This document shows positions 25,419 to 31,216 of a stretch of 64,000 bases of DNA, in pieces. Below the pieces are notes generated by a model. The model saw only the letters and a list, made by a program, of their open reading frames with translations. It did no database searches and had not been told where the DNA came from. This DNA comes from an uncultured Verrucomicrobiales bacterium (GTDB lineage Bacteria > Verrucomicrobiota > Verrucomicrobiia > Verrucomicrobiales > Akkermansiaceae): assembly GCA_947039485.1 (NCBI GenBank), contig CAMQZC010000005.1, forward strand, positions 1 to 64,000. Direction: 5' to 3'. Numbering within the stretch: position 1 is the first letter of the stretch; each line of letters starts with the position of its first letter. A program made the position numbers and the translations under genes.

Positions 25419-28400
25419 ATGATTGATTTTGATGTTCAGTGTTTGGCTAAGCTTAATTTAGCAATGCAGCAAAATGGAGTTCTCCTTTTTCAGCGTCTGG
25501 TTATCCAGCATGATGGGATGGAGGAGCTCCGTGATTTGAAGTTGCAGATATCTTGCAAGCCTGATTTGTTTCAGTTTTGTGAGACTCCTATTTCTGTGAT
25601 TGTGCCCGAGTCGTCTTTGGTTCTGGCTGATTTGCGAGTTAATTGGGATAGTGAGCGTTTGCGCGAGCTGAGCGAGGCTCAGATTGTACAGCTGCAAATA
25701 CGGCTCGTGCAGGGGGAGCATTTGCTCAAGGAGGAGTATCTGGATGTGGATGTTTTGCCATGGGATTTTTGGCCGGGTTATGCAATTTTACCAGAGATGC
25801 TAGCGGCTTTTGTGACGCCTAATGCGCCTGAGATTGCGCCGCTGCTCCAGAGGGCTGCTCAGCTGATGCTGGAGTGGACTGGTAGTGCTGCGTTGGATGC
25901 ATATCTGAGCCAGAGTGAGGATAGGGCCCGCATTCAAATCGCGGCACTTTATCAGGCTATTCGAGAGGAATGTATTGTTTATAGTCTCCATCCTGCATCT
26001 TTTGAGTCATGTGGGCAGCGTGTGCGTTTGGCAGACAAGCTGATTGATACGCGGCTTGGCACCTGCTTGGATATGACTCTTTTTTATGCGTCTTGTCTAG
26101 AGGCTATTGGTCTCAATGCGCTTGTTGTGATTCGGGATGAGCATACTTTTGTGGGTGCTTGGTTGAGAGATGAGACTCTCGCTGATTATGTGAGTGATGA
26201 TGCCTCACTGCTGCGCAAGCGCATAGCCAAAGGTATCAAAGAGATGTGCTTTGTTGAGTCTACATTGATGAATGCAGGTAAGGATGTCTCATTTGAGGAT
26301 GCCTCTAGCAGTGCTGAGGCGCAGCTCTTAGATGATGCTAGCTTTGTCTGTGTGCTCGATGTGAAACGCTGCCGCCTCATTGGGGTGCGTCCACTCTCAA
26401 AAGGAGGACAGTCACGGGCGGTTGCTAAGTCCTTTTCTGCACCTTTGCCCCTCGCGCCTGATGCGCTGGATTTGCAGAGGGATAAGGTTGAGGCTCAGAT
26501 GCGGCAGAGCCATGTGTTGGGGCGTCAGTCTATTTGGGAACGCAAGTTGCTCGATTTGAGTTTGCGCAATAACTTGCTTAATATGCGCCCTACTCGTAGC
26601 GTGCTGCCTCTGGTATCATCATCGATCAATGAGCTGGAGGATTTGCTGGCGCAGGGCAAGGAGTTTAGCTTCCGCCACCGCCCCGAGATGTATAAGCTGC
26701 CAGAAGTCGAGAATGGAGCAGCGGCTTTTACTACGATGAGTCCCCAAGACCCAATCTCTGAGCTTATTGTCCATGATATGAGGAATGGTTGCTTGCATAC
26801 AGTGCTCAGTGAGTTGGATACGGAGCGATGCCTTACGCATCTCTATCGCTCTGCTCGTTTGTCTTTGGAGGAGAATGGCGCTAACACGCTTTATCTTGCT
26901 CTGGGGTTGCTGCGTTGGTATGAGGGCCCTCATAGTGAGCGTGCTCGCTATGCGCCACTGATGCTGATGCCCGTGGAGATGAAGCGTCGCCGAGGTGTCT
27001 CCTCTGGCTATACCATTCGCTGTAGCGAGGAGGAGATTGTCATTAATATTACCTTGTTAGAGCTGCTCAAGCAGGATTTTACAATTGACCTTTCTCATCT
27101 CAATGAGCTCCCTCGTGATGCGCATGGTGTAGATGTGAACTTGATCTTTAATACGCTGCGTCAGAGTCTCAAGGATCAGCCTCGTTGGGATGTTGTTGAG
27201 CAGGCTGTGCTGGGGGTGTTCTCTTTTAGCAAGTTTATCATGTGGAATGACATCCACAATAATGTAGATAAACTGAGGCGCAGTCCCGTCGTTGATAGTT
27301 TGCTACAAAGTCAGCTTCAATGGTCGATTCCTGAGTGTGAGCCTCTGGATATTGACGCGCAGTTGCCGCCTGCAGAGTTGCTGCTGCCTGTGCCTGCTGA
27401 TGCCTACCAGATTGAGGCGATTTATCGCGCTGCGAAAGGCGAGAGTTTTGTTCTGCATGGCCCTCCTGGGTCGGGCAAGTCCCAGACGATTACAAATATC
27501 ATTGCCAATGCTCTCTATCGAGGCAAGCGCGTGCTTTTTGTTGCGGAGAAGATGGCGGCTCTCTCTGTGGTGCATCATCGCCTCAGTCAGATTGGTCTCA
27601 ATCCATTCTGCTTGGAGCTACATTCCAACAAGGCAACGAAGCTATCTGTGCTTACTCAATTGGAGGAGGCTGCTAATTATGGCGCCGTTGCCAAGCCTGC
27701 GCAATTTTCCCGCGAGGCTGAGAGGCTAGGCTCTCTGCGTAAGGAGTTACGCTGCCACGTTGATGCTTTGCACGAGCGTCAGTCGATGGGGATATCCCTC
27801 TATGATGCTCTCTACAGACTCGATAAGGATCCCCCGCCTGCTCAGACCCCATATAGGCCTGCGGCAGGGGTCTCTCTCTCTCTCTCTGCTGAGGAGTGGA
27901 CGGAGCTGAGCGATGCCTTAGAGCGTCTCAGTAGCTGCACCAAGCTAATTGGCTCAGCCGCTTCCCATCCGCTTAGCCTCGTTGGATTGAGTACTTATCA
28001 GTCAGGTATTGAGGATGAGTTAGCGCGGATATTCAAGGAGTTTGATGATTGCTGCAAAATTTTGCAGGAGAAGAAAGCTCTGGTGGAGGAGATGTTAGCA
28101 ATGACATCTTGTTCGAGTAAGCCAGATGATCTGCATTTAATTTTAGGCTGGGTCAGCTGGATTACGAAGCAAGATTTTCTGACAAGCGGATTGCTGCGTC
28201 AGGTGAATTTCGAGTCATTCGAGAAACGTGCTGTAAAGCTTGCTGCTCACGGGAGATCTCGCGATGCAAAGCTCGGCGAGATTGATCGCCTGTTGAGCCG
28301 CCCTGCGCTAGATTTAGACGCTACGCCTCTCCTGCGACAATGGCGCGAGGCGGAGACTCTATGGCTGCTGCCGCGCTGGATGAAGCAGAGAGGAATTGTT

Positions 28401-31172
28401 AGACAGCTGCGAACTTATGCCGAAGGCAAAGATCTGCAGGCTGATGATGTCCCGCGCTTGCTTCGTCTTATTGAGTCGACAAACGAGGAGATAAAGGCTG
28501 TAGCCCACCATTCTGATTGGGCTGAGGAGAACTTTGCTGAGCTATCCGAGGATTGGGGTCGTATGGAGGAAATTGCAGCAGTAGTCAAGAATTGGGCTGA
28601 TGCGGACTTGGGGGATATAGCAAAGGCGAGCCAGCTTCGCTTGGCTCTTTCGGATAAACTTATTGAGGGTCAGGCTACTTTTGATCGTCTTTACTCAGCA
28701 GATATGGAGGCTTATCAGCAGGCTTTATCTCGATTTGATGAGATGAAGCTCACTCTTTGTAAGAGGATGAAGTTGTCCATTGCCCTGCAGTTGGATTACG
28801 ATTTGTCCGACTGGTGCAATCTGTCTCATTGGTTTGCTCTGCATTTGAAACTCTTGCGCGATTGGTGTCGCTGGCAGCTGGCCGCAGATAAGCTGCGCGA
28901 TGCAGGCTATGGGAGCTATATTGATTACCTTGTGCTTAATGAGGTCCCTATTGGTCAGATAATCAATCAGTTTAATCGTGGTCTTTATCTCGACATGAAG
29001 GAGGAACTGCTCAGGAGAGATGCCTCATTGGGTGAGTTTAACGGTCAGATATTTGAAGACCTTCTTGATAAATATCGTGAGTTGGAGCTGCTCAATGAGA
29101 AGCTCTCGCGCCAAGAACTGGCAGCTCAGTTGGGCTCTCGCATTCCCGACTTTAGCCGTGAGGCCTCGCAAAACTCAGAGCTGGGTATCCTGCAACGCTG
29201 CCTTCGCAGTCGTGGGCGCGGCGTGACCATTCGTCGGATTTTTGAGACCCTACCTCAGCTCATGCCTCGACTCAAGCCATGCATGCTCATGAGTCCAATG
29301 TCGGTGGCTCAGTATATCGATGCTAAGCAGGAGCCTTTTGATTTGCTTATTTTTGATGAGGCCTCTCAGATGCCTACTTGCGAGGCGGTCGGGAGCATTG
29401 CTCGGGCTAAGAGCGTTGTTGTTGTAGGTGATCCGAAGCAGATGCCCCCCACGAGCTTCTTCTCTACTGGCTCTGTTGATGAGGAGGAGATGGAGATGGA
29501 TGATTTGGAGAGTATCTTGGATGATTGTCTAGCACTCTCCATGCCCTCACGCTATTTGCGCTGGCATTATAGGAGTCGGCATGAGAGTCTCATAGCCTTT
29601 AGTAACATGGAGTATTATGAGAATAAGCTACTCACCTACCCATCGCCGGATGACCTGAATAGTAAACTGAGCTTTGTGCCTGTAAAGGGTTTTTACGACA
29701 AAGGTAAGAGCCGGCGAAACGTAGCGGAGGCGGATGCAATCGTGAAGGAAATCTTGCGTAGGTTAGCTGACCCCGTTCTCTCTCGCTTGAGTATCGGTGT
29801 TATTAGTTTTAGCCAAGTGCAGCAAAGCTTGATTGAGGACTTGCTCTTGCAGGCCTTGGCTCGCCCGGAGTATGCAGTTTTGGAGCCTATCGCATTTGCT
29901 GGAAAGGAGCCCATTTTTATCAAAAATCTGGAGAATGTCCAAGGAGATGAAAGAGATGTTATTCTGTTCTCTGTCGGCTATGGTCCCGATGCGTCCGGAC
30001 GTGTTAGTATGAACTTTGGACCGCTCAATCGAGAGGGGGGCTGGAGACGCCTCAATGTAGCAGTGTCTCGTGCCCGCGCTGAGATGCAGGTGTTTTCCTC
30101 GCTTGCAGCAGAGCAAATTGATCTCTCTCGCACACGCTCACAAGGCGTGGCTGGATTGAGAGCCTTTTTAGAGTTTGCTCAAAAGGGGAAATCTGCCTTG
30201 TTGTACAAGAGTAACAGCTCTCGCGTGGAGGAGCCCTCCATGATTGACTTCATATCAATGCAACTCATGAAGCGAGGCTATGAGCTGCGCCGCCACATTG
30301 GGAGCTCTACCTATCGTATTGATATGGCTGTAATTAATCCAGAGAGACCCTCGGAATACCTCTGCGCGATTATCACTGATGGATTAGGATATCATGCTAC
30401 ATCCATTGTACGTGACCGTGAGTTAACTCAGGTGTCTATGCTGCAATCATTGGGCTGGAATATTCTGCGCGTCTGGACTCTGGATTGGCTTCAGGATAGT
30501 GAGCGCGTGATGAATGACTTGCTTCGCGAGCTGGAGAAGTTGCCGCGCGCGATTGCTCAGGAGGCCTCTTCTATGCCTACTACCAAGGGTGTCGATAATC
30601 CCGTTGTTGTGGTAGCAGCTGCGGCTCGTCCCTCTCGCTGGAGACCTTATGAGACGGCATGGATAGCGGCAGCCGATTGTGGAGGTCTCGATCCATTGAG
30701 TGCCATGTTCATCCCAAAAATGTGCATGCATATTGAGCTTATTTTATCCAAGGAGGCGCCTATGCATCAGGAGGCTCTTGCTCGCCGTCTGATGACAATT
30801 TGGGGTCTGAGAACTCTCACTAGTCGGGTGCGTCGCTTTTTTGCTGAAATTTATGATAGGATGGATTTGTGTCATCGCGGTGATTTCCTTTGGGTCTCGA
30901 TCGAGCAGGAGCAGGGCTGGGATTGCTATCGCCTGGAAGATGAGCGCAAAGCGGAGCATATCGTAGCTCAAGAGTATGCCTATGCGGCTCTCGATCTTTT
31001 GCAGCAGCAGCTCGCGATGCCTCGCGAGGATTTGCAAGCAGGGCTAATCGACCTCTTTGACCTCGGTCGTAAGACGGAGAAACTCCGCTCAATCGTGGAT
31101 GCGGGAATTGATTATGGCATGAGCCATGAATTGTTCACCGAGGCGAATGGGCGCTGCAAGTTTGTCGATTGA
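25419..31172 (+). CDS. Giant DUF4011-type SF1 helicase with C-terminal Vsr/DUF559-like nuclease and DUF3320-like region; candidate single-gene defence protein
   Basis: 1917 aa. Walker A HGPPGSGKSQTI, Walker B LLIFDEASQM, GDPKQMPPTSFF, motif VI LNVAVSRARAEMQVF. Nuclease-like block IDMAVINPERPSEYLCAIITDGLGYHATSIVRDRELTQVSMLQSLGWNILRVWTLDW. Confidence 0.88.
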   Translation: MIDFDVQCLAKLNLAMQQNGVLLFQRLVIQHDGMEELRDLKLQISCKPDLFQFCETPISVIVPESSLVLADLRVNWDSERLRELSEAQIVQLQIRLVQGEHLLKEEYLDVDVLPWDFWPGYAILPEMLAAFVTPNAPEIAPLLQRAAQLMLEWTGSAALDAYLSQSEDRARIQIAALYQAIREECIVYSLHPASFESCGQRVRLADKLIDTRLGTCLDMTLFYASCLEAIGLNALVVIRDEHTFVGAWLRDETLADYVSDDASLLRKRIAKGIKEMCFVESTLMNAGKDVSFEDASSSAEAQLLDDASFVCVLDVKRCRLIGVRPLSKGGQSRAVAKSFSAPLPLAPDALDLQRDKVEAQMRQSHVLGRQSIWERKLLDLSLRNNLLNMRPTRSVLPLVSSSINELEDLLAQGKEFSFRHRPEMYKLPEVENGAAAFTTMSPQDPISELIVHDMRNGCLHTVLSELDTERCLTHLYRSARLSLEENGANTLYLALGLLRWYEGPHSERARYAPLMLMPVEMKRRRGVSSGYTIRCSEEEIVINITLLELLKQDFTIDLSHLNELPRDAHGVDVNLIFNTLRQSLKDQPRWDVVEQAVLGVFSFSKFIMWNDIHNNVDKLRRSPVVDSLLQSQLQWSIPECEPLDIDAQLPPAELLLPVPADAYQIEAIYRAAKGESFVLHGPPGSGKSQTITNIIANALYRGKRVLFVAEKMAALSVVHHRLSQIGLNPFCLELHSNKATKLSVLTQLEEAANYGAVAKPAQFSREAERLGSLRKELRCHVDALHERQSMGISLYDALYRLDKDPPPAQTPYRPAAGVSLSLSAEEWTELSDALERLSSCTKLIGSAASHPLSLVGLSTYQSGIEDELARIFKEFDDCCKILQEKKALVEEMLAMTSCSSKPDDLHLILGWVSWITKQDFLTSGLLRQVNFESFEKRAVKLAAHGRSRDAKLGEIDRLLSRPALDLDATPLLRQWREAETLWLLPRWMKQRGIVRQLRTYAEGKDLQADDVPRLLRLIESTNEEIKAVAHHSDWAEENFAELSEDWGRMEEIAAVVKNWADADLGDIAKASQLRLALSDKLIEGQATFDRLYSADMEAYQQALSRFDEMKLTLCKRMKLSIALQLDYDLSDWCNLSHWFALHLKLLRDWCRWQLAADKLRDAGYGSYIDYLVLNEVPIGQIINQFNRGLYLDMKEELLRRDASLGEFNGQIFEDLLDKYRELELLNEKLSRQELAAQLGSRIPDFSREASQNSELGILQRCLRSRGRGVTIRRIFETLPQLMPRLKPCMLMSPMSVAQYIDAKQEPFDLLIFDEASQMPTCEAVGSIARAKSVVVVGDPKQMPPTSFFSTGSVDEEEMEMDDLESILDDCLALSMPSRYLRWHYRSRHESLIAFSNMEYYENKLLTYPSPDDLNSKLSFVPVKGFYDKGKSRRNVAEADAIVKEILRRLADPVLSRLSIGVISFSQVQQSLIEDLLLQALARPEYAVLEPIAFAGKEPIFIKNLENVQGDERDVILFSVGYGPDASGRVSMNFGPLNREGGWRRLNVAVSRARAEMQVFSSLAAEQIDLSRTRSQGVAGLRAFLEFAQKGKSALLYKSNSSRVEEPSMIDFISMQLMKRGYELRRHIGSSTYRIDMAVINPERPSEYLCAIITDGLGYHATSIVRDRELTQVSMLQSLGWNILRVWTLDWLQDSERVMNDLLRELEKLPRAIAQEASSMPTTKGVDNPVVVVAAAARPSRWRPYETAWIAAADCGGLDPLSAMFIPKMCMHIELILSKEAPMHQEALARRLMTIWGLRTLTSRVRRFFAEIYDRMDLCHRGDFLWVSIEQEQGWDCYRLEDERKAEHIVAQEYAYAALDLLQQQLAMPREDLQAGLIDLFDLGRKTEKLRSIVDAGIDYGMSHELFTEANGRCKFVD
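27871..27887. repeat. (TC)8.5 dinucleotide tract inside the helicase ORF
   Basis: TCTCTCTCTCTCTCTCT, encoding SLSLS. Confidence 0.95.
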
Positions 31173-31181
31173 TTTTGTGAA

Positions 31182-31216
31182 AAATGAGCCTAGTCCCTCA
31201 GGGATTAGGCTCATTT
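31182..31216 (+). terminator. Terminator after the helicase
   Basis: AAATGAGCCTAGTCCCT...AGGGATTAGGCTCATTT hairpin. Confidence 0.75.

Follow-up and report, generated by a model that had tools for sequence, protein, structure and literature searches.

A ProA-family (PDC-S37-type) protein of an uncultured Verrucomicrobiales bacterium, predicted to be a single-gene anti-phage system and probably devoid of a classical nuclease

Introduction

Defence proteins that combine a helicase and a nuclease are usually assumed to act by cutting the DNA of the invader. There is prior description of very large proteins of this kind. (Anantharaman et al., 2013; PMC3710099) predicted the architecture of the MTES_1575-type proteins to be that of a modification-independent, restriction-like giant. 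Profile models also exist for Hhe (DUF4011-helicase-Vsr-DUF3320), for the "anti-phage protein ProA" (NCBIfam NF058533) and for PDC-S37, a candidate system of PADLOC. Our literature search found no paper behind the names ProA or PDC-S37, and a link between "Prometheus", a DefenseFinder name, and ProA is no more than a guess. We have analyzed a gene of this type in a stretch of 64,000 nucleotides from an uncultured Verrucomicrobiales bacterium, the whole of which is called here the window. ProA is already a named family, and what is new here is a branch of it that is predicted to be nuclease-independent.

Results

Gene and domain architecture

The ORF at 25419-31172 of the forward strand, on which all the features of the gene are located, starts with ATG and runs in a single unbroken frame of 1917 amino acids; it is a real gene. 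Its product matched NF058533 with 1938.9 bits (cut-off 1500) over positions 1-1902 of the 1903 in the profile, and the best PADLOC model was PDC-S37 (1149 bits, residues 366-1910, profile positions 6-1541 of 1550). The membership in an anti-phage family proposed by a previous sequence-only reading of this DNA is borne out by these two matches. Homologues from several phyla were likewise above the ProA cut-off.

DUF4011 is found at residues 376-550 (26544-27068; PF13195, E 2.7e-44), followed by the N-terminal part of an SF1 helicase (Pfam AAA_11, residues 661-741, 27399-27641) with the Walker A sequence GPPGSGKS at 27459-27482. After a long and variable stretch that separates the helicase motifs (residues ~860-1240, 27996-29138), with few invariant columns in the alignment, the C-terminal part of the helicase extends from the Walker B DEAS (residues 1313-1316) to motif VI (29355-30098; Pfam AAA_12, residues 1370-1560). 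Next come an MTES_1575/Vsr-type restriction endonuclease (REase) fold at residues 1613-1705 (30255-30533; PF18741, E 1.5e-21) and DUF3320 at residues 1766-1805 (30714-30833; PF11784, E 2.6e-6), the latter within a C-terminal helical region. A wHTH overlapping DUF3320 was proposed in PMC3710099. All five Pfam matches (DUF4011, AAA_11, AAA_12, MTES_1575 and DUF3320) exceeded the curated cut-offs, so that the domain search recovered every segment named in the previous reading, DUF4011 and the nuclease fold included.

The helicase looks intact, as had been claimed. The Walker A Lys, the Walker B DE and the motif VI Arg of the SF1 helicases are all present, and seven key residues (K687, D1313, E1314, Q1341, R1385, G1509 and R1551) were identical in 98 of 98 homologues, window protein included.

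Erosion of the nuclease site

The block described before as a Vsr/DUF559-type nuclease does have the fold, as found by Pfam, but the case for the working nuclease that this implied is weakened, since the Glu of both motif I and motif III are missing. In the window protein they are replaced by I1609 and I1652 (30372-30374), respectively, while D1635 (30321-30323), T1653, D1654 and H1659 are retained; the full series of catalytic residues (E of motif I, D, E of motif III and H) is therefore not found. The best structural match of the REase block was 3hrl, with a TM-score of 0.65 by target length.

We have gathered and aligned 102 homologues, 98 of which could be scored at the motif-III Glu position: 28 of them have this residue and 70 lack it. 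In a tree built from the helicase columns only, the Glu-less homologues formed two groups (SH-aLRT 100 each), one of 54 rows from Bacteroidota/Bacillota that contains the window protein and another of 18 rows from the genus of the window organism itself. The motif-I column was E in 89% of the Glu-bearing set, 23% and 0% in the two Glu-less groups, and the column of His1659 (motif III) was H in 82% of the Glu-bearing set and scattered or Ala in the other groups. D1635, R1667 and W1680 were near invariant across groups and the RDR positions were conserved, suggesting that the REase fold is kept under constraint. The ProA model does not separate the two types of members, since it covers Glu-bearing (L065, L131) and Glu-less ones (L090, L110, L071) alike. 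Two losses of the Glu were favoured by parsimony and by a log-likelihood better by 40.7 units; a single origin is the less favoured scenario, although not rejected (AU p 0.065).

With key active-site residues lost, DNA cutting cannot be assumed. The Vsr of E. coli, an enzyme that does cut, is not known to carry a Glu in motif III either, and the window protein retains D1635, T1653, D1654 and H1659. For these reasons we term the REase of the window protein probably not a classical nuclease, rather than a dead one. The alternative that survives best keeps the same family and role, with an REase that would cut phage DNA by means of a metal site like that of Vsr, formed by D1635, the T1653 backbone, D1654 and H1659. 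The fold is well recognised, the precedent of Vsr speaks for it, and D1635, D1654 and H1659 are all preserved in the window protein (IITDGLGYH), which sets it apart from most members of its clade. Yet both Glu positions of the canonical set are Ile, close relatives read ILCDGxNY, having lost the His too, and some have no DG altogether and still persist. We regard an active REase as possible but unlikely, and prefer a REase fold that in this branch probably has a binding, structural or regulatory role instead of that of a classical nuclease.

The N-terminal module

Residues 1-325 contain a module that had been overlooked. We searched residues 1-384 separately by Pfam, an alignment of 14 sequences, AlphaFold and Foldseek. 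The Pfam match to Transglut_core was below threshold (12.8 bits versus a gathering score of 23, E 0.15). The AlphaFold model, obtained from the 14-sequence alignment, had a mean pLDDT of 83.9, its confident part being residues 1-325, and Foldseek matched it to beta-sandwich proteins and transglutaminases. The best fold matches in the PDB were TG2 and PNGase, followed by TG3 and factor XIII, all with weak TM-scores. C216 (26064-26066), H242 (26142-26144) and E280 (26256-26258) were invariant in the 14 sequences, window protein included, so that the Cys-His-Asp/Glu triad that characterizes the transglutaminase-like superfamily is found in the right fold, if at low TM-scores. The model thus gives good support to an Ig-like beta-sandwich domain (residues 1-118, 25419-25772) followed by a transglutaminase-like, papain-type domain (residues 125-325, 25791-26393). 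The latter is a putative protease-type enzyme, with an activity and a target that we infer. No conserved HEPN-type Rx4-6H motif was seen in residues 1-660 by the alignment column list and Pfam, H242 being the only invariant His, and on this basis we rejected the HEPN domain of the 2013 prediction.

The triad was present in 28 of 28 Glu-bearing homologues, 42 of 52 in the large Glu-less group and 9 of 18 in the genus group. In the other 10 and 9 the triad was lost or the whole domain absent, so the family cannot depend on the transglutaminase-like site as its only effector. Neither the predicted nuclease site nor the protease-type site is universal among the homologues, and the motor, with its 98 of 98 conservation, appears as the only activity given up by no member.

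The N-terminal module is missing from four homologues of the same genus (L061, L066, L073 and L075, ~1500-1560 aa), in which the REase is eroded as well; intact motifs are left only in their helicase and DUF4011.

Origin and genomic context

The window protein grouped in the tree with the Bacteroidota/Bacillota homologues and not with the copies of its own genus, a grouping with the latter being rejected (AU p 1.2e-8). Identity over the full length reached ~42% with Bacteroidota, and the own-genus copies showed 34-36% in tblastn segments. Besides, the GC3 of the gene was 0.53 versus 0.65 +/- 0.07 for the 41 longer ORFs of the window, the second lowest value. Tree placement and low GC3, along with the occurrence of relatives in plasmid records and the lack of convincing defence neighbours in the window, make horizontal acquisition the simplest reading and a probable one, with a Bacteroidota/Bacillota-type lineage as the proposed source.

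Human faeces were the source of an 11.4-kb record labelled "Bacteriophage sp." (MT836269.1, hit H16), in which we also found an unannotated ProA homologue with 44% identity across 89% of the query. This could be a prophage, a phage-borne copy or mislabelled bacterial DNA.

The flanking genes are those described before. On the 5' side, dus has the same orientation and is separated from the gene by 46 nt; on the 3' side, a polyferredoxin gene is convergent. Its own terminator was confirmed at the 3' end, where a strong, terminator-like hairpin separates the convergent genes (31182-31216, forward strand, 17-nt arms, 94% complementary); independent transcription is less certain, as dus is so close and no terminator was found in the 46-nt gap. 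In relatives holding both flanking genes these are not adjacent, which left no clean pre-insertion site for comparison. We clustered 813 neighbours of the homologues and no family appeared in more than 5 of the 102 loci, in agreement with a one-gene system. A missing partner nuclease next door can be discarded, with no recurring partner family and no convincing defence genes among the window neighbours, and the 51 other ORFs of the window gave only two weak PADLOC matches, which places the gene outside a defence island.

Some other features of these loci deserve mention. The start of the dus ORF (window:24155-25372) is probably placed too far upstream: alignments with homologues begin at residue ~65-90, and the upstream ORF, in another frame, overlaps its first 75-80 residues. 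Convergent reverse transcriptase genes lie within ~20 nt of ProA homologues (L090:13806-14969, L092:13777-14859, L170:14861-15991) in Dysgonomonas, Apibacter and a Bacteroides finegoldii plasmid record; they are closest to the retron type III-A models of PADLOC and ~47-60% identical to each other. The window has no such gene. In two genus members ProA is followed, after 9-19 nt, by a co-directional gene (L056:6188-8068, L057:11497-12519), and the protein of the former weakly matched IetA and TRIP13 models. The own genome contains a second SF1 helicase of 1403 aa near the end of contig C22 (G000:C22:539-4750, i.e., L087:539-4750, reverse strand), with about equal scores to PDC-S37 (167 bits) and Mokosh MkoA (160 bits).

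The context bears on a second alternative, that of a helicase for maintenance of host nucleic acids with no defence role. The gene is co-directional with the housekeeping dus at a short distance, the scan of the window ORFs found no defence neighbours, and a DUF4011 gene is part of the core in P. aeruginosa (PMC10250203), so the domain by itself is no proof of defence. Against this, the occurrence of the family is patchy, its relatives are present in 433 plasmid records and a curated anti-phage model was passed. Nor is the gene syntenic core in all relatives, the copy not being orthologous to those of its own genus. We consider a maintenance role improbable.

Discussion

Our analysis indicates that the window protein very probably has an anti-phage function of its own. 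If so, the eroded site makes it reasonably likely that classical DNA cleavage is not involved. The whole reading, a single-gene ProA/PDC-S37 anti-phage protein that was horizontally acquired and works without a classical nuclease, is the one towards which we lean, if only slightly. The ATP-driven SF1 motor (Sen1/Upf1-like) with DUF4011 would engage abnormal nucleic acid, for example intermediates of phage replication or transcription, and the C-terminal DUF3320/wHTH region would bind DNA. What harms the phage or the infected cell could be the action of the motor or that of the transglutaminase-like (protease-type) domain at the N-terminus. Defence in the host organism, and what the protein would sense there, we infer as well. 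In a more tentative way, about which we have some doubts, the same could apply to a large branch of ProA that includes the window protein, with defence without DNA cleavage, a nuclease turned non-catalytic once or twice and protection by the helicase or the protease.

The same catalytic Glu has been lost in 70 of 98 scorable relatives while seven helicase positions stayed fixed, and such a parallel or ancient loss of a nuclease site was unexpected. It raises the question of whether the nuclease is dispensable across much of the ProA family, which is testable through K687, C216 and D1635. It also calls for caution, as a "nuclease" annotation taken from domain names can mislead.

Comparison with known systems

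The Hhe identity proposed in the sequence-only reading can be dismissed. The domain order (DUF4011-helicase-REase-DUF3320) is the same and the partial homology to the Hhe models is significant, but the score is far under the curated cut-off (NF042953, 759.3 bits versus 2000) and PADLOC Hhe is outscored by PDC-S37 (531 versus 1149 bits). With Mokosh (MkoA/MkoC) the SF1 helicase core is shared, the matches being weak and partial (94 and 83 bits). The MTES_1575-type giants of PMC3710099 resemble the window protein in the transglutaminase-like domain, the SF1 helicase, the Vsr-type REase, the DUF3320/wHTH and the lack of a modification gene, but here there is no conserved HEPN-type motif and the REase is eroded. 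PDC-S37 is covered nearly over its full profile, a model that excludes the N-terminal transglutaminase-like module. Finally, ProA is matched over the full length, and the window protein differs by the loss of the two Glu positions of the nuclease.
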